Positions 5,563-12,529 of a stretch of DNA of 22,320 bases are shown here, one piece after another. The stretch comes from a virus. The stretch spans positions 1 through 22,320 of the IMG/VR virus record IMGVR_UViG_3300027779_000177, one strand, 5' to 3'. The position numbers and the translations under genes are program-made. The first letter of the stretch is position 1; every line of letters begins with the position of its first letter. The notes under the pieces are model-generated. The model worked only from the letters and a program-made list of their open reading frames with translations. It was not told the origin of the DNA and made no database searches.

Positions 5563-5925
5563 ATGTACACAATTATTGATGAAACCACACGACTTGTCAC
5601 TCATTTGTCTGTAACGGCGGAAGAAAGAGATGCGATGGAGAATTACTTATTTGTGCCAGCAGATGAAGTTGAGTGTTCTGTTGGGCAAAAGCTAGACAGT
5701 AACACTGGTTTATTTTCTGACTACGTGATGACACTTGATGAGTTTAAAGAAAAACACGCCCGTATTTTTAGCGAGTCTGACATCGTTATATTACGTCACC
5801 TTGAAGGTTCTGAAACACTTACGTCTACAGTATTAGATGAGTGGAAAGCGTATCGCACTGAGTTACGCGCGCGGTTCCATAGCTACACGTTTACGGCTAA
5901 TTATCAATGGCCTACTAAACCATAA
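5563..5925 (+). CDS. Tail fibre assembly chaperone-like protein
   Basis: A 120-residue acidic protein starts seven bases after the fibre stop with AGGG five bases before ATG. It ends with a helical segment, LDEWKAYRTELRARF, followed by WPTKP. A C-terminal W-x-x-Y-R-x-x-L-R pattern is common in small proteins encoded immediately after fibre genes that help fold or trimerise the fibre (Tfa-like). The N-terminal half is a small beta/alpha domain with no recognisable motif. The assignment rests on the C-terminal pattern and the position after the fibre. Confidence 0.6.
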   Translation: MYTIIDETTRLVTHLSVTAEERDAMENYLFVPADEVECSVGQKLDSNTGLFSDYVMTLDEFKEKHARIFSESDIVILRHLEGSETLTSTVLDEWKAYRTELRARFHSYTFTANYQWPTKP

Positions 5926-5951
5926 ATGCTAACTCTATAAAAAGGCTAAAC

Positions 5952-7121
5952 ATGAATTACAGCGAATACTTACCTTATGCACGCCCTCACGAACGAGAAA
6001 AGATAGAGGCTATTACAGCAGCTGGTTCAATTAACCAGGCATGTCTTGATCTAGGGCAAGATCAACGGCAAGTGCGTCGTGCGTTAAAGCACATGAAGGA
6101 ACGCATAGCGAGAGAAGAAGGCTTCGCACCTGACGCTGGATTAAATCAGCCAACGGCTCCAAGTGAGATTCTAAAAGGGCGCTCATTCTTGAAGAAGGAT
6201 GATGATGGTACGCTCACATGGTACAAAACAGCCTTTAAAGAATCTGAAAATTTAGACATACTTCAAGACTTATTAGGTAAGGCTGCAGAGAAAATGCAGA
6301 CCATACCGCTTATCAAGCCGCCAGCCGCAACACCCAATGAAGAACTATGCACTGTGTACACACTCACGGATTTTCATTTAGGTATGTTGGCGTGGGAAGG
6401 TGAGGGTGGTGAACGATGGGATTTACCGACAGCGAAGTCAGTGATGATAAACGCATTCCAAGATTTGATTTCACAGAGTCCGCCATCTGAGTTCGCTATC
6501 TTTAACCAGTTAGGAGATTTTTTGCATTTTGACGGGCTGGACGCGGTAACGCCACAAAGTAAACATGTATTGGATGCGTCGGGTCGTTATGCCGAATGTA
6601 TTGAATTGGCTATTGAAGTGATTTGCGAAGTGACAGGGTTGCTGCTACAAAAGCACCGTACAGTTAAGTTGCTTATGTGCGAGGGCAACCATGATGAATC
6701 GGGTTCGATTTGGTTGCGTATTGCCATGAATAAGATTTTTGCAGACAATCCTCGCGTCGAGGTGAACATCGAGGCGCTGCCCTTTTATGCAGAACAGCAT
6801 GGTGACATTCTGTTAGGATTCCATCACGGACACAAAGTAGCGAACAAACGCTTACCGATGTTGTTTGCGAGTGAGCCTAAGTTTAGAAAGATGTGGGGCC
6901 AAGCTGAGTACACGTATATACACACCGGACACTATCATCATCAGGAGCAAGAAATTGCAGAAGGCGGTGGCGCGATTGTAGAAAGGCATCCTACTTTGTC
7001 AGCACGGGATGCGTATTCGGCAAGGGGTGGATACGTGAGTTGGCGATGTGCCAGGGCGGTGACTTATCATAAGAAAGATGGTGAGCTAAGTCGGACAACG
7101 GCGAAGCCCAGATTGCATTAA
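5952..7121 (+). CDS. Calcineurin-like metallophosphatase with N-terminal HTH-like segment
   Basis: The 389-residue protein has an N-terminal helix-turn-helix-like stretch (about residues 12-52: REKIEAITAAGSINQACLDL, then RQVRRALKHM). After a linker comes a metallophosphatase core: TDFHLG (Asp140, His142), LGDFLHFD (Gly188-Asp189, His192), GNHDE (245-249), HHGH (291-294) and GHYHH (326-330). These are the dinuclear metal ligands expected of calcineurin-like phosphoesterases, so it should hydrolyse a phosphoester; the substrate is unknown. Homologous enzymes occur in phages next to tail or packaging genes. It is the last gene of the late operon and ends four bases inside the opposing gene. Confidence 0.85.
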   Translation: MNYSEYLPYARPHEREKIEAITAAGSINQACLDLGQDQRQVRRALKHMKERIAREEGFAPDAGLNQPTAPSEILKGRSFLKKDDDGTLTWYKTAFKESENLDILQDLLGKAAEKMQTIPLIKPPAATPNEELCTVYTLTDFHLGMLAWEGEGGERWDLPTAKSVMINAFQDLISQSPPSEFAIFNQLGDFLHFDGLDAVTPQSKHVLDASGRYAECIELAIEVICEVTGLLLQKHRTVKLLMCEGNHDESGSIWLRIAMNKIFADNPRVEVNIEALPFYAEQHGDILLGFHHGHKVANKRLPMLFASEPKFRKMWGQAEYTYIHTGHYHHQEQEIAEGGGAIVERHPTLSARDAYSARGGYVSWRCARAVTYHKKDGELSRTTAKPRLH

Positions 7122-7477
7122 AGTGGATCCCCATATTCATCCACTTCTCTATCATCTCCAAAGAATCCCTGATCAGGACAGCTAGCTGACTCACTGTAAT
7201 CATCGTAACTCTTAGAGGGTGAATGACATCGAGAGTGTAGCAGCTTTATCTTGAACGGCCGATCTTTGGGGTCAGCATAGATTCCTTTTGTTCGATCACC
7301 ATCCCCAAGCATCTCGTAAACATCAGCACCATCGAACACTCCATGGCCGTCATAGGCAGGGTCATGATAGTTTTTGTCTGGTGTAACGAGTACACAGTCA
7401 GACTTTTCTGGCTGGTGACTCCACTTGTTCATTACCGACTCGTTACATTCGGCGCATTGCCATGAAAAGAATCCCAT
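7118..7477 (-). CDS. Small Cys-containing phage protein (MGFFSW type)
   Basis: A 119-residue acidic protein on the leftward strand; GGAG lies eight bases before the ATG. It begins MGFFSWQCAEC, an N-terminal pattern shared by many small phage proteins of unknown function, with a CxxC pair (Cys8, Cys11) and other cysteines near residues 28, 83 and 98 that could bind zinc. A middle VFDGADVYEML motif is also typical of that group. The C-terminus is strongly Asp/Glu-rich. It is the last leftward gene, beyond attP, so after integration it would lie at the opposite prophage end from the integrase. Function unknown. Confidence 0.7.
   Translation of the reverse strand: MGFFSWQCAECNESVMNKWSHQPEKSDCVLVTPDKNYHDPAYDGHGVFDGADVYEMLGDGDRTKGIYADPKDRPFKIKLLHSRCHSPSKSYDDYSESASCPDQGFFGDDREVDEYGDPL
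7121..7146 (+). terminator. Candidate late-operon terminator hairpin
   Basis: Immediately at the stop of the metallophosphatase there is an 8-bp perfect stem, AAGTGGAT and ATCCACTT, with a 10-base loop, followed by TCTCTATC. The position between convergent genes suits a terminator for rightward late transcription. The downstream T-tract is poor, and the hairpin lies inside the opposing gene, so this is tentative. Confidence 0.35.
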
Positions 7478-7550
7478 AATTATTACTCCGTATTAGTTAA
7501 ACATAGCTTACTTTTTTTTGTACACGAAACCTACACATTTTTGCATTAAA

Positions 7551-7573
7551 AAAGTGACCGCAAAAGTGACCGC
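7551..7573. repeat. Left-arm direct repeats near attP (candidate integrase arm sites)
   Basis: Two copies of AAAGTGACCGC, at 7551-7561 and 7563-7573, lie 12 bases apart. The core AAGTGACC reappears in the same orientation twice on the other side of the attachment core. Same-orientation, helically spaced short repeats flanking a core are what arm-type binding sites of tyrosine integrases look like. Confidence 0.6.
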
Positions 7574-7605
7574 TTTGGCAGGAAAGGACGGTAATTAGGG
7601 GTCAT

Positions 7606-7622
7606 TAGTAGTTTAGCTGCTA
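7606..7622. promoter_or_regulatory. Palindromic operator-like site 3, inside attP region
   Basis: TAGTAGTTTAGCTGCTA matches 16 of 17 consensus positions; only the central base differs. It lies between the left arm repeats and the tRNA-like core. It could mark a regulator site that influences integration, or a promoter near the attachment region. Confidence 0.55.
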
Positions 7623-7679
7623 TGAATATTTACTTGTAAATCAATTACTTAGTGGCATAAGTAGGGTGTATATAATAGA

Positions 7680-7701
7680 TCGAGTCTCTCCGTCCGCACC
7701 A
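7680..7701 (+). other. Candidate attP core: tRNA 3' end (tRNA-Leu-like)
   Basis: TCGAGT CTCTC CGTCCGC A CCA reads as the 3' end of a tRNA gene: the last six bases of a T-loop, the 3' side of the T-stem, a seven-base acceptor strand, discriminator A and CCA. The 5' half of a tRNA is absent upstream, so this is not a full tRNA gene. The acceptor strand would pair with GCGGACG, which resembles the start of many gammaproteobacterial tRNA-Leu genes. A weak hairpin (CCCTT/AAGGG, 7707-7724) followed by ATTTTATTT could restore the tRNA terminator after integration. An integrase gene follows at 7776. Confidence 0.7.
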
Positions 7702-7735
7702 TTCAACCCTTTGATATATAAGGGATTTTATTTGC

Positions 7736-7776
7736 AAGTGACCTTTAAGTGACCTTTTTGTACCAAAAAGTGTACC
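7736..7776. repeat. Right-arm direct repeats near attP (candidate integrase arm sites)
   Basis: AAGTGACCTTT occurs twice back to back (7736-7746 and 7747-7757), followed by two degenerate related units (TTTTTGTACC ending at 7764 and AAAGTGTACC ending at 7776). Read on the minus strand, GGTCACTT or GGTACA units recur every 10-12 bases, about one helical turn. They have the same orientation as the left-arm pair and run up to the stop codon of the integrase gene. Confidence 0.6.
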
Positions 7777-8954
7777 TATTTTCCAATTTGCTTCTTATAC
7801 TCTTCCTCTAACAAAGACCCGTGCTTGACACCTTTTTGTTGGATAAACCGCGCGTAATATTTTAATGTGGTCGTGCTGTCTTCATGCCCCATTTGTTTTG
7901 CAACATACTCTAAGTCTTCTCCAACCTGCAACATGGTCGATGCGTAAGTGTGCCGAGTTTGATAAGGGACTCGGTAGCGTACTCCCGCTTTTTTTAGCAC
8001 ATCAATCCATTGATCGCGTATTTTGTTAGTCGTGCTCCAAGGCTCATTCGTGTTTGGATTCGTAAATACAATATCATTAGGCGCTTTCGTTCTAAGAAAG
8101 GTGTACTCTTTATAGGCAAGTAAGCATTGCATTGCAGGGCCAACTAAATCGACTGTCCGAAAAGAGGCTTGCGACTTAGGAGGTTGGAATTTATTAGGGC
8201 TTGCGTCAACGATTACTTGATCTATTAGAATAGTGCATCCGATGAAATCGACACGACTCCAACAAAGACCTCTTATTTCTTCTGGGCGCAGTCCTGTGAA
8301 GAACTGAAACATTAGTTGTAATCCGAACTGTCTACGTGCAGCTTTCTTAATAGCGTCCCGTTCATCCCAAGAGAAGGGATCAACTCGAGTGGCTTCAGAT
8401 TTTATTATGACTTTAGGGCTTTTTAGTTTTTTGCCTAACAAGGGGTTTACAGTAATGATGCTTTCTTCTACTGCTGAGTTAAGCGCATCGCGCAGAACAG
8501 CGACTCGTTGAGAGCGAGTTGCTGCTAGGACATCCATCTTCAATGCCCAGTTTTTAACATCGAGCCACGTTAAATCAGCTACACGAATTTTAGCTAAAGG
8601 GGTTTTTAATACTTGGCCTTCGACGAGTCGTCTGTAAAATGTATAAGTACCAGGGCCTATAACATAGTGGTTGGCAAGCCAATGCACCATGAATGTTCCA
8701 AATAATCGTCGGTTAGCGTACAGGGCTGCTCTAGGTGACTCAGGGAAAGTTTCTGCATAATCAAAAGTACCATTCTTGATAGCAATATTGATTTGTTTTA
8801 AATGAAGGGATGCTAGTTCTAGATTAGCGGGGGTGGGCTCGAGTTTAATGAATTCACGTTGCCTCTTTTTGCCGTAAGGGTAGGTGAATCTGACGCTGAT
8901 CGTGTTTTTACCTTTAGACGGTTTGACCCCGTGGTACGTTTTTTGTCTACCCAT
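7776..8954 (-). CDS. int: Tyrosine recombinase integrase
   Basis: A 392-residue integrase with AGGAGG nine bases before its ATG. The basic N-terminus (FTYPYGKKRQREFIKL) fits an arm-site DNA-binding domain of the type found in Arm-DNA-bind/DUF3596 integrases. A core-binding SAM-like domain spans about residues 80-170. Catalytic residues are visible: Arg223 in TGLRPEEIRGL, Lys260 in the beta-hairpin, Arg334 in YQTRHTYAS (Tyr331 where many members have His), His357 in MGHEDS and nucleophile Tyr366 in LKYYARF. It should insert the phage at a tRNA 3' end. The adjacent tRNA-like core and flanking repeats fit. The excisionase frame overlaps its 5' end by 136 bases. Confidence 0.93.
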   Translation of the reverse strand: MGRQKTYHGVKPSKGKNTISVRFTYPYGKKRQREFIKLEPTPANLELASLHLKQINIAIKNGTFDYAETFPESPRAALYANRRLFGTFMVHWLANHYVIGPGTYTFYRRLVEGQVLKTPLAKIRVADLTWLDVKNWALKMDVLAATRSQRVAVLRDALNSAVEESIITVNPLLGKKLKSPKVIIKSEATRVDPFSWDERDAIKKAARRQFGLQLMFQFFTGLRPEEIRGLCWSRVDFIGCTILIDQVIVDASPNKFQPPKSQASFRTVDLVGPAMQCLLAYKEYTFLRTKAPNDIVFTNPNTNEPWSTTNKIRDQWIDVLKKAGVRYRVPYQTRHTYASTMLQVGEDLEYVAKQMGHEDSTTTLKYYARFIQQKGVKHGSLLEEEYKKQIGK

Positions 8955-9112
8955 GATTCATAGCCTCCTAGACTTATCAGTATTCTGCTATCAGGTGCGC
9001 GGGAGAACACTTCATTCTCAAGCCAGACACCTTCACTGATCTTATTCCTAATTGCTTTTTCTGTATAGCCTGACAGTTCTGAAAACTTACTTATGGTTAC
9101 TCTGTCTAACAT
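8819..9112 (-). CDS. xis: Excisionase-like DNA-binding protein
   Basis: A 97-residue protein whose first 55 residues (VTISKFSELSGYTEKAIRNK, then SEGVWLENEVFSRAPDSRIL, ending YESWV) match the winged-helix pattern of phage excisionases, including the W-x-E-x-x-x-x-x-x-P-D-x-R core. Such proteins bend attL/attR DNA and steer the integrase towards excision. The remaining 40 residues are basic and Ser/Thr-rich and are read from the 5' part of the integrase gene in another frame, so they may be a low-constraint tail. The gene lies directly upstream of int on the same strand, the usual arrangement for coupled xis-int expression. Confidence 0.8.
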   Translation of the reverse strand: MLDRVTISKFSELSGYTEKAIRNKISEGVWLENEVFSRAPDSRILISLGGYESWVDKKRTTGSNRLKVKTRSASDSPTLTAKRGNVNSLNSSPPPLI

Positions 9113-9121
9113 AGGGTACTC

Positions 9122-9418
9122 CTACTGCGCTTGAATTACCAAACGCTGTCCGAAGAAAACAACTTTCTCCGAGTCGTACAATGCCGAATTGCCGGGCTTT
9201 CCTCGCCCCTGCCTTTTCGCTGCACGACGCCAAACTGCTTTAAACGCGTTGCCTTCCGCGAAGTTCATTTCTAGTGCTTCAATAATGTCATTACATTCGG
9301 CCCAATAAGACGCATCTAGCGTCGTTGGGTGCTTAATTTCTATTTTGTAGTAAGAAGAAGATCCCCCAGTTAAAGAAGGGGTCTCAACTGAAGGATCTTC
9401 TGTGGGGTGATTGGTCAT
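9122..9418 (-). CDS. Conserved-type phage protein of unknown function
   Basis: A 98-residue protein lying nine bases upstream of xis. A disordered Thr/Ser/Pro-rich start (about 22 residues) precedes a compact domain with YYKIEIKHPTTLD, AECNDIIEALEMNFAEGNAF, KAVWRRAAKRQGRGKPGNS and EKVVFFGQRLV. I recall this AECNDIIEAL...EGNAFKA...R pattern from small proteins in many phages and prophages, without a known function. The basic middle could bind nucleic acid, which is speculation. The start codon overlaps operator-like site 4, so its expression may be directly controlled by that site. Confidence 0.75.
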   Translation of the reverse strand: MTNHPTEDPSVETPSLTGGSSSYYKIEIKHPTTLDASYWAECNDIIEALEMNFAEGNAFKAVWRRAAKRQGRGKPGNSALYDSEKVVFFGQRLVIQAQ

Positions 9419-9434
9419 AAGAGTTCAACTGCTA
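9418..9434. promoter_or_regulatory. Palindromic operator-like site 4
   Basis: On the plus strand TAAGAGTTCAACTGCTA matches 15 of 17 positions of the consensus. It abuts the ATG at 9418, sharing one base with it. A protein bound here would block transcription into, or initiation on, the gene preceding xis and int. Confidence 0.5.
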
Positions 9435-9461
9435 TTTAGGGTGTAAAAAAAGCTACTTATT

Positions 9462-9680
9462 TTATGGAGGCCCAGCACTTGATAAATTGTTACATCCTTT
9501 TCCAAAGGGCGTTTCAAGATTCGCAAACATACGCAAGCGAGCGTATGTTTCTATACGTATCCTTGGCCCGTCACGCTGAGTTAGATAACGTCCCGTATGG
9601 ATTAAGTGCCATCGATAAGTATCTTGTGATTGCCACGCCATATTGCGACTTCGGTTGTCGGTTAACTGAGTTATGAGCAT
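9462..9680 (-). CDS. Doubtful small ORF downstream of the repressor
   Basis: A 72-codon frame starts with an ATG overlapping the repressor TAA (TAATG), which would suit translational coupling. The predicted protein is basic and Arg-rich, with no domain I recognise. The opposite strand has an almost equally long open frame, and a perfect 10-bp inverted repeat lies inside, so the interval may be non-coding. I rate coding as possible only. If non-coding, the 9435-9677 gap holds just the hairpin and a possible leftward promoter for the xis-int group (TAAAAT near 9461-9466). Confidence 0.25.
   Translation of the reverse strand: MLITQLTDNRSRNMAWQSQDTYRWHLIHTGRYLTQRDGPRIRIETYARLRMFANLETPFGKGCNNLSSAGPP
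9525..9550. repeat. 10-bp perfect inverted repeat (hairpin)
   Basis: AAACATACGC (9525-9534) and GCGTATGTTT (9541-9550) are perfect inverse complements around a six-base loop, AAGCGA. No T-tract follows on either strand, so a simple intrinsic terminator is unlikely. It may be a protein-binding site or an RNA processing or attenuation structure between the repressor and the xis-int group. Confidence 0.5.
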
Positions 9681-10342
9681 TAGTCCTTTAGCTCCCAGTT
9701 AGTTGCACGGTGAGTCCCTATTACCATGTCGCATGTTTTCACTTCGTCCGATTGAAGATCATACGTGCAATTATCCTGCAGTTTCAGAATTTGCGTAATC
9801 CCTGCATTGTCATTAAAAAAGCGCCCAACGAAACGAATCCCATCGTTCAGTTCTACGAACACTTCTGCTCCAGCCTGTGGTTTAACACGATTTGAGCATA
9901 CAATGAATGAGTCTTTCGCGATGTAGGGTAGATAGTGGTCTACATCAATCTGTACTGCATAAGGCTCCAAGTCCCCTTGGATTTCTACAGATTGTATCGC
10001 TTGGATAGTTGGTTTTCCTCGTATTGCGTAGCGCACTTGTATTTCTATCTGAGGATAGAAAGAGGTGCGTACTGGTTCCATTAATTCAGGATAAATATCT
10101 AATGGGGAGACACTCATTGCCTGGGCGAAATTTACAACCGCAGTCATGTTCAAAGGAACTTTCTCGAGGAAGTATTGTGATATTGCACTTTGTTGCTTCA
10201 ATCCCATTCGTTTAGCGAGGATTGTTTGATTTAGCCCATCTTCATATTTTTGTCGATTGTATATTTGAATTATACGTTGCACAGCTCGGGCCTCAGATTC
10301 GGGGGACACGGCAGCACCTACGAGAAGACTCGCTCTAGCCAT
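9680..10342 (-). CDS. Phage repressor, HTH plus inactive-looking S24-like domain
   Basis: A 220-residue protein with AGGAAG eight bases before its ATG. An XRE-type helix-turn-helix covers about residues 36-75 (LNQTILAKRMGLKQQSAISQ then NMTAVVNFAQAM). The C-terminal half (about 125-215) resembles the LexA/CI S24 peptidase fold. At the expected GDSMxP motif it has VDHYLP, placing His136 at the Ser position. At the expected VKR motif it has VGR, placing Gly173 at the Lys position. It is therefore probably a dimerising repressor that cannot cleave itself. It is transcribed in the same direction as the early genes and upstream of the xis-int group. The alignment is by eye. Confidence 0.82.
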   Translation of the reverse strand: MARASLLVGAAVSPESEARAVQRIIQIYNRQKYEDGLNQTILAKRMGLKQQSAISQYFLEKVPLNMTAVVNFAQAMSVSPLDIYPELMEPVRTSFYPQIEIQVRYAIRGKPTIQAIQSVEIQGDLEPYAVQIDVDHYLPYIAKDSFIVCSNRVKPQAGAEVFVELNDGIRFVGRFFNDNAGITQILKLQDNCTYDLQSDEVKTCDMVIGTHRATNWELKD

Positions 10343-10375
10343 CAGGTTTCTTCCTATTCTAGTGTTTATGATAGT

Positions 10376-10409
10376 ACACCACGGAATCTTTGCTCCTTTA
10401 GGGTGGTGT
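10376..10409. promoter_or_regulatory. Inverted repeat upstream of the repressor
   Basis: ACACCAC (10376-10382) and GTGGTGT (10403-10409) form a perfect 7-bp inverted repeat with a 20-base spacer in the 72-base gap before the repressor gene. A possible minus-strand -10 box (TACTAT, 10371-10376) touches the left arm, but no good -35 is seen. It could be a control site of the repressor promoter, distinct from the 17-bp palindrome. Confidence 0.35.
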
Positions 10410-10414
10410 TATGC

Positions 10415-10846
10415 TTAATGTACAAGTTTCGAATCGAGTGTAACTAAGCATTCTCGCATTATATACTCAGCTACCCCACGCTTGTCAATAGCTGAACTGC
10501 TAAAAGATCCTAAAGTCACTGGTTGAGAAAAGTCAGTCACAATCAGGTTGTTCTTCCATTTCATCCCGAAAGGAGCATTCATACCAATTACTAAGGCAAT
10601 ATTACGCCCTTCTTGTTGTCGGGATTTTAGCCAATAATGCTGCTGCTTTGTTAAGCAGGTTTTAATCTCGGTAGTTTGTTTCTTTGGGGGATTAGCCAGG
10701 TACTTATACTCAATCCACAGGTCGCCAGCCGCACCAGAGTAGTAGGCATCAGCTACGCCGCCATGAAAGTTGTCATTAATTTTCCATTTATAGATACTGG
10801 ATGGGAGCATCTTATGTATGGATTTAATGTAACTATGCTCGTTCAT
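10415..10846 (-). CDS. PD-(D/E)xK-type endonuclease, phage VRR-NUC/resolvase-like
   Basis: A 143-residue protein with a restriction-endonuclease-like signature: GGVADAYYSG (Asp33) followed by GDLWIEYKYL (Glu46, Lys48). The spacing and the IEYK strand are characteristic of small phage nucleases of this fold, which cut branched or damaged DNA during recombination or packaging. The size is normal for a stand-alone nuclease domain. It overlaps the upstream membrane-protein gene by 14 bases. Operator-like site 5 lies within its 3' part, close to the repressor gene it precedes. The fold assignment is good; the specific substrate is unknown. Confidence 0.75.
   Translation of the reverse strand: MNEHSYIKSIHKMLPSSIYKWKINDNFHGGVADAYYSGAAGDLWIEYKYLANPPKKQTTEIKTCLTKQQHYWLKSRQQEGRNIALVIGMNAPFGMKWKNNLIVTDFSQPVTLGSFSSSAIDKRGVAEYIMRECLVTLDSKLVH
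10486..10502. promoter_or_regulatory. Palindromic operator-like site 5, inside nuclease gene
   Basis: CAATAGCTGAACTGCTA matches 15 of 17 consensus positions. It is one of two copies inside a gene (with site 1) and lies 144 bases upstream of the repressor ATG, so it may act as a roadblock site or feed back on repressor expression. Confidence 0.45.
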
Positions 10847-11033
10847 CGTCAGCTTTCTTCATTTGATTAATAAAGGATGTGTTACGGGACTCAATCCACA
10901 TTTCGCGAGCGAATTGAAGGTACTGCCGCTTTCGCCTACCCGTTAACAAATACCGCGCTATGTAAGTTAAAGCTACTCCGAAAGGAATCCCTATACTTAT
11001 GCCTATAGCGAGTCCTAATAGATCAATACTCAT
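10833..11033 (-). CDS. Small membrane protein
   Basis: A 66-residue protein with GGAG six bases before ATG. The N-terminal 30 residues are one hydrophobic segment (LLGLAIGISIGIPFGVALTY), followed by a basic, cytoplasm-type stretch (TGRRKRQYLQF) and a polar C-terminus. That predicts a single-span protein with the C-terminus in the cytoplasm by the positive-inside rule. No family is recognised. It lies between a nuclease gene and a terminator, and its ribosome site is part of the duplicated intergenic cassette. Confidence 0.6.
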   Translation of the reverse strand: MSIDLLGLAIGISIGIPFGVALTYIARYLLTGRRKRQYLQFAREMWIESRNTSFINQMKKADDERA

Positions 11034-11048
11034 GGTCTACTCCACAAA

Positions 11049-11074
11049 TAAAAAAGCCACCCCGAAGGATGGCT
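11049..11074 (-). terminator. Rho-independent terminator with TTCG loop, copy 1
   Basis: On the minus strand AGCCATCC-TTCG-GGGTGGCT forms an 8-bp stem with one C/A-type irregularity, capped by a very stable TTCG tetraloop and followed by six T residues. It lies 14 bases after the stop of the gene at 11088 and should end or reduce leftward transcription. Confidence 0.85.
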
Positions 11075-11091
11075 CTTGTTAAGGTACTTAG
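11049..11091. repeat. 43-bp stop-terminator repeat, copy 1
   Basis: This segment is 42/43 identical to 11304-11346. On the minus strand it begins with or at the TAA stop of the upstream gene, continues through a conserved GTACCTTAACAAGAG linker and ends with the terminator T-tract. Weaker similarity continues into the next gene's ribosome site (TGGAGTA). Confidence 0.9.
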
Positions 11092-11288
11092 GCCGCTATA
11101 AAACGATCAGTCTCTTTAACATACGTATGCACACTATCAATGTGGTTGATACCAAAAAATGAGTCATCCCAAGCTTTGGTAATAGATGCTTCGCTATTCA
11201 TAACCTCTATTTTCTTGTGGGCTTCTTCTTTTGAGTCTGCTTCAATGGTTAATGAACCGGTATAGGCAACTTCTGCTCTATATTTCAT
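11088..11288 (-). CDS. Small hypothetical protein framed by two identical terminators
   Basis: A 66-residue protein with GGAG six bases before the ATG. It appears to be a small alpha/beta domain: strand MKYRAEVAYTGSLTIEA, helix DSKEEAHKKIEVM, then a second half with FFGINHIDSVHTYV. The pattern resembles small double-split-strand phage proteins of unknown role. It is bounded on each side by copies of the same stop-terminator cassette, as if gene and cassette had been inserted or duplicated together. No function assigned. Confidence 0.65.
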   Translation of the reverse strand: MKYRAEVAYTGSLTIEADSKEEAHKKIEVMNSEASITKAWDDSFFGINHIDSVHTYVKETDRFIAA

Positions 11289-11303
11289 AATTTACTCCAG
11301 AGG

Positions 11304-11329
11304 TAAAAAAGCCACCCCGAAGGATAGCT
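11304..11329 (-). terminator. Rho-independent terminator with TTCG loop, copy 2
   Basis: On the minus strand AGCTATCC-TTCG-GGGTGGCT (one base different from copy 1) is followed by six T residues. The change replaces a G-C pair by a T-G wobble, so this copy should be slightly weaker. It lies just after the gene at 11343. Confidence 0.82.
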
Positions 11330-11346
11330 CTTGTTAAGGTACTTAG
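11304..11346. repeat. 43-bp stop-terminator repeat, copy 2
   Basis: This is the partner of 11049-11091, with one mismatch. The TAA of the gene ending at 11343 lies inside the repeat, at the same position as the TAA of the other gene in copy 1. Confidence 0.9.
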
Positions 11347-12032
11347 TGGATAGTTGGGTCTGTTATACCCTTCATAGCGAAGTAGGTTGACCTTGCTTGC
11401 TTATAAAGTTCAGCACCCGCTGCACCCTTATTCGCTGCTTTGAAGACTTGATAGCCTTGACCCATTCTGTTGCTTTCCTCAACTGAGGTTAACTCCCAGA
11501 CTGTTCCAAAACGATCACAATCGTAGCTGGCAATGTTAGTATTCCACGCATCAGATACCTTTTTATTAGCACCAGACATGTAGATTCGCGCAACACTGTT
11601 TATGTTTTCCCCCGTAGCATCTAAATAAGCTACAGTGTGGATACCCGTGTCTACGAGGTCATGCTCTTCTTCATTGAGGTTGTTATCGGCTAGATGCTGG
11701 TGTGCATCACCTAGGTTTTGGTGAAAGCCTTCAAAACCACCGCCTGCGGTACGCTTCTTAAAGATCGTAAATCCAGCCTCGAACTTTAAGTTTAGAACAT
11801 ACATCGCATCGAAGAAGTCGCCCGTTAAGGTATTGAAGATGTGCCCGATCTCTAGCCCCTTGAGGTGCTTAGCATCGGTTTTCTTCATTTCACCACTCAT
11901 GAGTTGTGCTAGTTTTAACTGAGGGATAGCCATATCTTCGGCAGATACGTTTTCGTTACCGAGATTTGCACCACCTAATAGGTGGGCTGGTAGGGTGTCG
12001 GCAGATTCAAAGGAAATAATTGATTTGGTCAT
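11343..12032 (-). CDS. Conserved-type phage protein, possible ssDNA-binding role
   Basis: A 229-residue protein beside recombination and replication genes. The N-terminal half contains EDMAIPQLKLAQLMSGEMKK and GHIFNTLTGDFFDAMYVLNL, a pattern I associate with a widespread phage family whose members begin with an IPxxKLxQ segment and continue as a beta-barrel-like domain; some are suspected single-stranded DNA-binding proteins. The second half has Asp/Glu-rich and aromatic strands (DRFGTVWELTSVEE) and no enzyme motif. The leader carries operator-like site 6, a good -10 box and a hairpin, and the gene ends in a strong terminator, so it may be made as its own abundant message. Function inferred only. 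Confidence 0.65.
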   Translation of the reverse strand: MTKSIISFESADTLPAHLLGGANLGNENVSAEDMAIPQLKLAQLMSGEMKKTDAKHLKGLEIGHIFNTLTGDFFDAMYVLNLKFEAGFTIFKKRTAGGGFEGFHQNLGDAHQHLADNNLNEEEHDLVDTGIHTVAYLDATGENINSVARIYMSGANKKVSDAWNTNIASYDCDRFGTVWELTSVEESNRMGQGYQVFKAANKGAAGAELYKQARSTYFAMKGITDPTIH

Positions 12033-12049
12033 TGGTTTCTCACTTTTTT

Positions 12050-12070
12050 AAAGGATAAAGGATAAAGGAT
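12050..12070. repeat. Three tandem AAAGGAT units in a leader
   Basis: Three exact 7-bp copies of AAAGGAT (plus strand) lie in the 104-base leader of the gene starting at 12032. Next to them, 12071-12099 forms an 8-bp stem (minus strand GGTCTACT with AGTAGGCC, one G-T pair). Confidence 0.75.
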
Positions 12071-12104
12071 GGCCTACTCACATTAGGGGTAAGTAGACCT
12101 TGTA

Positions 12105-12110
12105 ATTATA
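12105..12110 (-). promoter_or_regulatory. Predicted -10 box for the gene at 12032
   Basis: The minus strand has a perfect TATAAT at 12105-12110, directly overlapped by the edge of operator-like site 6. No convincing -35 is present 16-18 bases upstream (TAGCAT), so the promoter may be activator-dependent or rely on other elements. Predicted transcription would start about 65 bases before the ATG. Confidence 0.5.
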
Positions 12111-12125
12111 ACAGTTCAGCTACTA
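12109..12125. promoter_or_regulatory. Palindromic operator-like site 6
   Basis: TAACAGTTCAGCTACTA matches 16 of 17 consensus positions. Its left edge overlaps the TATAAT of the predicted leftward promoter. The same offset between site and -10 box is seen at site 7. Confidence 0.65.
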
Positions 12126-12136
12126 AAATGCTATAT

Positions 12137-12529
12137 TTAGCTAACTCTCAGGTTGACGTTTTGCTTCTCAAAAGCAACAAGACCAGGGACGGTTTTGTAT
12201 TTCTCTAGGAAACGCGGGTCTTCCATAAGTTCCTTTACATGTAGGTTGGCTACACGCTTTTGCAGGAGGTGGGTGTGTCCACTTTCCAAGATGTATTCTT
12301 GAAAAAGACTATAATCAGCAACATTGTATACTGTAGCATCCGATAGCGACACGGTAATCCCGTCCACAGCAGTACGCTCGATGCCTTCGGCGTGCATCTT
12401 TATGCGTATTTGCTGTTTAATTTCCTCAAGGCTCACACTAATTATAGTTACGTCTTTCTCAAGCGCTCGCTTGTCATCACGTAACACTTTAGCTGTGTTT
12501 AATAGCTCTTTTAAGGTCATATCGGACAT
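12137..12529 (-). CDS. Hypothetical protein with N-terminal coiled coil
   Basis: A 130-residue protein with GGAG six bases before ATG; the stop codon of the upstream gene is part of this ribosome site (TAGGAG). The first 50 residues form a charged helix (LLNTAKVLRDDKRALEKDV, then SLEEIKQQIRIKM) likely to make a coiled coil. The rest is a small mixed domain ending in LVAFEKQNVNLRVS. The layout resembles small phage proteins found near ssDNA-binding or recombination genes, such as Gp157-like ones, but I cannot confirm a family. Function unknown. Confidence 0.65.
   Translation of the reverse strand: MSDMTLKELLNTAKVLRDDKRALEKDVTIISVSLEEIKQQIRIKMHAEGIERTAVDGITVSLSDATVYNVADYSLFQEYILESGHTHLLQKRVANLHVKELMEDPRFLEKYKTVPGLVAFEKQNVNLRVS

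Follow-up and report, generated by a model that had tools for sequence, protein, structure and literature searches.

An attP with a tRNA-Leu(UAG) core in a viral DNA fragment, and arm motifs that vary with the integrase N terminus among its relatives

In phage lambda, attP consists of a central core with arm-type sites on both sides and flanking IHF sites, and is accompanied by an adjacent gene for an integrase (Int) with an arm-binding N-terminal domain, and by xis. In a 22,320-nucleotide (nt) viral DNA (IMG/VR record IMGVR_UViG_3300027779_000177, positions 1 to 22,320; the whole stretch analysed is hereafter referred to as the window), a tRNA-like core flanked by short repeats beside an integrase gene raises two questions: whether this locus is an intact attachment site of that kind, and which of its parts stay fixed or change among related phages. 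Here we report that the window very probably contains an intact attP of the lambda type, belonging to a temperate tailed phage, and that in its wider family the core is shared whereas the arm motif and the N-terminal residues of Int vary together.

Architecture of the attachment region

The attP spans positions 7552 to 7754, beside a tyrosine integrase gene. Its common core, TCGAGTCTCTCCGTCCGCACCA (7680 to 7701, + strand), occurs once in the 22,320-base record and is identical over 22 nt, including CCA, to the 3′ ends of tRNA-Leu(UAG), providing the identity with attB that is expected of a lambda-type attP. At least 119 stretches carrying the core were among the matches listed in a scan of viral contigs, and all 54 of the listed tRNA genes with the exact core (11 distinct sequences, identified with ARAGORN) are tRNA-Leu(UAG). 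A reading made from the sequence alone had proposed a tRNA 3′ end and a tRNA-Leu target; both proposals hold, and the predicted target of the window attP can be specified as tRNA-Leu(UAG). Absence of the core from tRNA genes, named beforehand as an outcome that would count against that reading, is not observed. A search of PLSDB with the full tRNA-Leu(UAG) sequence gave no exact organism, the best match (95%) being to chromosome-size Neisseria records. No complete tRNA was found in the window, as would also be the case if the core were a chance resemblance or a fragment of a tRNA gene with no role in attachment. However, the match is exact over 22 bp and is retained beside the int genes of relatives while their flanks diverge, which makes that explanation barely credible.

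The window contains exactly four copies of the repeat AAGTGACC, all on the + strand and two on each side of the core, in agreement with the same-orientation repeats reported earlier and with the arm sites on both sides of a lambda-type core. P1 (7552 to 7559) and P2 (7564 to 7571, 12 bp after P1) lie to the left, and P′1 (7736 to 7743) and P′2 (7747 to 7754, 11 bp after P′1) to the right. The chance expectation is 0.74 copies per window, and four copies were reached in 1 of 100 shuffles, a count made without demanding clustering within 203 bp around the core. A probable third left-arm site, and fifth arm site overall, is the inverted GGTCATT with one mismatch at 7600 to 7606 (− strand); inverted copies, exact or near-exact, occupy like places in the related loci L109 (−81), L012 (−69) and L021/L022 (−57). 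Furthermore, the exact IHF consensus WATCAANNNNTTR occurs in the 22-kb window only at 7639 (+) and 7704 (−), as AATCAATTACTTA (7639 to 7651) left of the core and TATCAAAGGGTTG (7704 to 7716) right of it, the latter at the same place in most relatives. Both matches bracket the core and lie between it and the arms, where IHF would be expected to bind. At least one exact consensus is present in 12 of 13 attPs, compared with shuffle means of 0.01–0.05; none was found in the L016 attP. The two IHF-consensus sites and the probable inverted arm site had escaped the sequence-only reading.

The integrase gene (7776 to 8954, − strand) encodes 392 residues (phrog_1), with an arm-DNA-binding domain (PF12167) at residues 20 to 74 and a PF00589 domain, both over the curated cut-offs; together with the core and the two arm pairs, this bears out the earlier proposal of an intact attP beside an integrase. 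On the same strand lie an excisionase-like gene (xis; 8819 to 9112, phrog_9668), which overlaps int, and a repressor-like gene (9680 to 10342, phrog_4). Genes left of the core lie on the + strand (a virion protein with 35% identity to a protein of Aeromonas phage phiARM81mr, an M15 peptidase and an exonuclease), and those on the right lie on the − strand (int, xis, repressor-like, helicase, primase-like and ligase genes). Thus, phage genes occupy both sides, as previously noted, and the locus is not a prophage edge; host sequence in the flanks, named beforehand as an outcome that would count against this, is not seen, the flanks being phage sequence in relatives. The att site sits where the two gene halves meet, as it does in lambda.

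Two stretches near the attP drew separate attention. The ORF at 7118 to 7477 is flanked by a 9-bp direct repeat, TTGCATTAA (7113 to 7121 and 7541 to 7549). It is found in L003, L008, L009 and L010, is missing from L004, L006, L016 and L026, and gives way to other sequence in L002, L012, L014 and L020–L024; judged by this distribution, it is a present/absent cassette adjoining attP. Within 5900 to 12500, the stretch with DNA similarity to catalogued phages is approximately 9137 to 9354 (ORF 9122 to 9418, − strand), with 69–82% similarity, mostly to T7-like enterobacterial phages, among the matches listed; the ORF product resembles the C terminus of a polynucleotide kinase family (phrog_7063).

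In the mechanism that we propose, Int would bridge the core and the arm sites (P1, P2, perhaps the inverted P3, P′1 and P′2), while IHF would bend the DNA at two positions. Strand exchange would take place within the stretch common to attP and tRNA-Leu(UAG), so that integration would rebuild the tRNA 3′ end, and the strand cuts would plausibly fall in the T-loop TTCGAGT, between the GAGAG and CTCTC stem halves. That this phage would integrate in this way is suggested by sequence features: the tRNA-Leu(UAG) core, the arm repeats, the positions of the IHF consensus, the homology of Int and Xis, the phage genes on both sides and a layout kept in relatives.

Related attachment sites and their genomic setting

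Our widest scan revealed related integrases at 29 IMG/VR loci, plus one further lineage, and the related attPs (Int 59–92% identical) have the core and layout in common with the window. The core lies 76–83 nt past the int stop in 25 loci (L006 has a core with one mismatch) and is also found beside int in L109, L165, L166 and L173; used as a query for additional lineages, the L109 integrase matched itself alone. Across 14 attPs the arm-pair positions are near-constant. Counted from the first core base, the right pair is at about +57/+68 in most attPs and at +68/+79 in L173, and the left pair is at −127/−115 in the window, L002 and L109 and at about −115/−103 in the others. A third arm site, direct or inverted, lies between the left pair and the core in most attPs.

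The sequence-only reading had suggested looking for prophages bounded by the core with this integrase. None came to light: the related IMG/VR loci and a scan of GTDB representatives yielded no integrated copy, host, lysogen or attL/attR junction, and the single match in the GTDB scan (27%) was irrelevant. This result would suit a degenerate or inactive region, a relic of lost integration ability left in a phage that has since become strictly lytic. Against such decay, int, xis and the repressor-like gene are all open, and the arm repeats are perfect copies that vary in step with Int from lineage to lineage, a pattern to be expected if selection continues; we therefore give the relic only a slight probability. 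A marginally greater, though still small, probability attaches to a window that joins two tandem prophages, or belongs to a prophage array, within a chromosome. A double lysogen also has a full attP at its centre, and within 22 kb the structure would look the same in this virus-fragment record, for which no completeness is stated. Yet none of the related IMG/VR loci with the core beside int has a tRNA junction, the attP being present inside the contig without a tRNA, and arrays should also yield some attL/attR contigs. The earlier suggestion of a free, circular or packaged genome is therefore compatible with the intact attP but is not uniquely indicated by it, and an intact attP of a temperate phage remains our preferred reading.

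Other phages occupy the same site: contigs with a complete tRNA or a second core copy encode integrases with 24–29% identity, located approximately 150–200 nt from the core, and in the isolate-derived record 2663763493_000001 the tRNA and a second core copy lie near opposite ends. Moreover, additional bases resembling the tRNA adjoin the core on its left in the attPs of L020, where the match extends to GAGAGTTCGAG, and L021, which has T for A. In the near-identical attPs of L021 (3628 to 3649) and L022 (2763 to 2784), the base immediately to the left of the core is T, as in the tRNA, and A, respectively. These bases may be the footprint of past integration and excision, or of exchange with the tRNA.

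At greater distance the core differs. A 44%-identical integrase in L170 (932 to 1350) adjoins another tRNA 3′-end core, TTCAAATCCTGCCGTCCCGACCA, which we read as probably that of tRNA-Pro, and the identity of the core thus seems to follow the catalytic part of Int. The closest catalogued phage integrases (38% identical) belong to Pseudomonas phages including vB_Pae_CF60a, and the core was not found beside int for three distant phage integrases checked (35–39% identical). Within the family, L003, L018 and L026 have exonucleases 95–97% and helicases 90% like those of the window, yet their integrases are 71–81% identical and their arm motifs differ; conversely, L002 has a 92%-identical Int yet a different replication-side gene (27% identity). 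These combinations indicate that the integration module has been exchanged between backbones, and phages with differing arm motifs may be alike enough to share a host.

Arm motifs and the integrase N terminus

With the register set by hand, the arm motifs fall into six classes over 12 integrases with a fixed core: AGTGACC (window, L002 and L166), GTGGACA (L003), GCTGGCA (L004, L011, L014 and L022), GCTGCGG (L012 and L173), GCTGACA (L020) and TGTGACA (L109). The copies of an attP all change in concert, and none of the attPs contains an exact copy of the motif of another class. A tree built from Int residue 38 onward implies six or more changes of motif. Int residues 1 to 37 follow the motif rather than ancestry: L003 and L004, with different motifs, are 66% alike over these residues and 97% and 92% alike in two later parts, whereas L004 and L022, with the same motif, are 89% alike there and 77% and 74% elsewhere. 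Across 11 lineages, N-terminal identity and motif identity remain correlated once the rest of Int is controlled for (partial Mantel r 0.58, p 0.0005); in this set, only three motif classes have more than one member and independent changes are few.

Within each motif class, Int residues 20 and 22, which fall on the middle strand predicted for the N-terminal sheet, do not vary; the same holds for several other Int columns. They are S/R with GTGAC, E/V with GCTGGCA, E/E with GCTGACA, Q/E with GTGGACA and E/R with GCTGCGG; this final pairing occurs in two separated branches. Residue 20 agrees with arm base 2 in four of four independent pairs, a number too small for significance. An AF2 model of the N-terminal domain (mean pLDDT 77) has three strands (residues 10 to 12, 19 to 23 and 32 to 36) and a helix (42 to 61), resembling AP2 and the arm domains of the HPI, HAI7 and Tn916 integrases with Z scores of 3.3–4.9, under the level clear of chance; Foldseek gave no significant match for this model. 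The full-length Int model was poor (pLDDT 63) and served solely for the secondary structure of this domain.

The DNA encoding Int residues 1 to 45 (8820 to 8954, − strand), which include the predicted arm-binding β-sheet and the motif-tracking residues 20 and 22, lies within the xis–int overlap (136 nt at 8819 to 8954 in the window; 133–136 nt in L109, L166 and L173). It also codes for the C-terminal tail of Xis, and a change in arm specificity would thus likely alter Xis as well.

Presumably, the host tRNA holds the core constant in the wider family while the arm motif and the Int N-terminal domain change together. Differing arm motifs in like phages could be explained by insulation between co-resident prophages or by neutral co-drift. 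We tentatively put forward, as a minority possibility, a specific form of insulation: phages with a common backbone that use one and the same tRNA-Leu core as attB would be selected for mutually unreadable arm codes, so that the Int and Xis of one phage could not excise or capture the prophage of another, and a small residue-to-base code at Int residues 20 and 22, re-used across lineages, would set specificity. The family offers a ready-made comparative series: against a fixed core, 12 integrases record at least six changes of arm motif, and candidate specificity residues are named. This makes arm recognition, and the reason why phages with the same attB diverge in their arm sites, directly testable.

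Comparison with known attachment systems

The window attP itself is an ordinary, textbook lambda-style site. It has in common with the lambda Int–IHF–Xis system a central core, arm-type sites to left and right, predicted IHF sites flanking the core, a separate arm-binding N-terminal domain in Int, and int adjacent to attP together with xis. It differs from lambda in that its core is a tRNA 3′ end, its four exact arm sites (perhaps five) have another motif and its xis overlaps int by 136 nt. In Cluster K1 mycobacteriophages, the common core lies at the 3′ end of the tmRNA gene and is accompanied by two arm pairs, and differences in arm consensus among close relatives go along with differences at Int residues 17 and 19 (PMC3203893). 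The window family is similar in its RNA-gene 3′-end core, its two arm pairs and its arm-linked Int residues two apart. However, the Cluster K1 difference is small and concerns very closely related integrases, whereas the window family spans six motif classes and pairs GCTGCGG with E20/R22 in two separated branches. The Oenococcus IntF and IntB-F prophages likewise have attB in common and different arm repeats, with substitutions concentrated in the N-terminal 66 residues of Int (PMC8074189), but they comprise two types only and belong to a different host group. Collectively, co-variation of arm sites and Int is already known on a small scale, and the window family is a larger and broader case of it.
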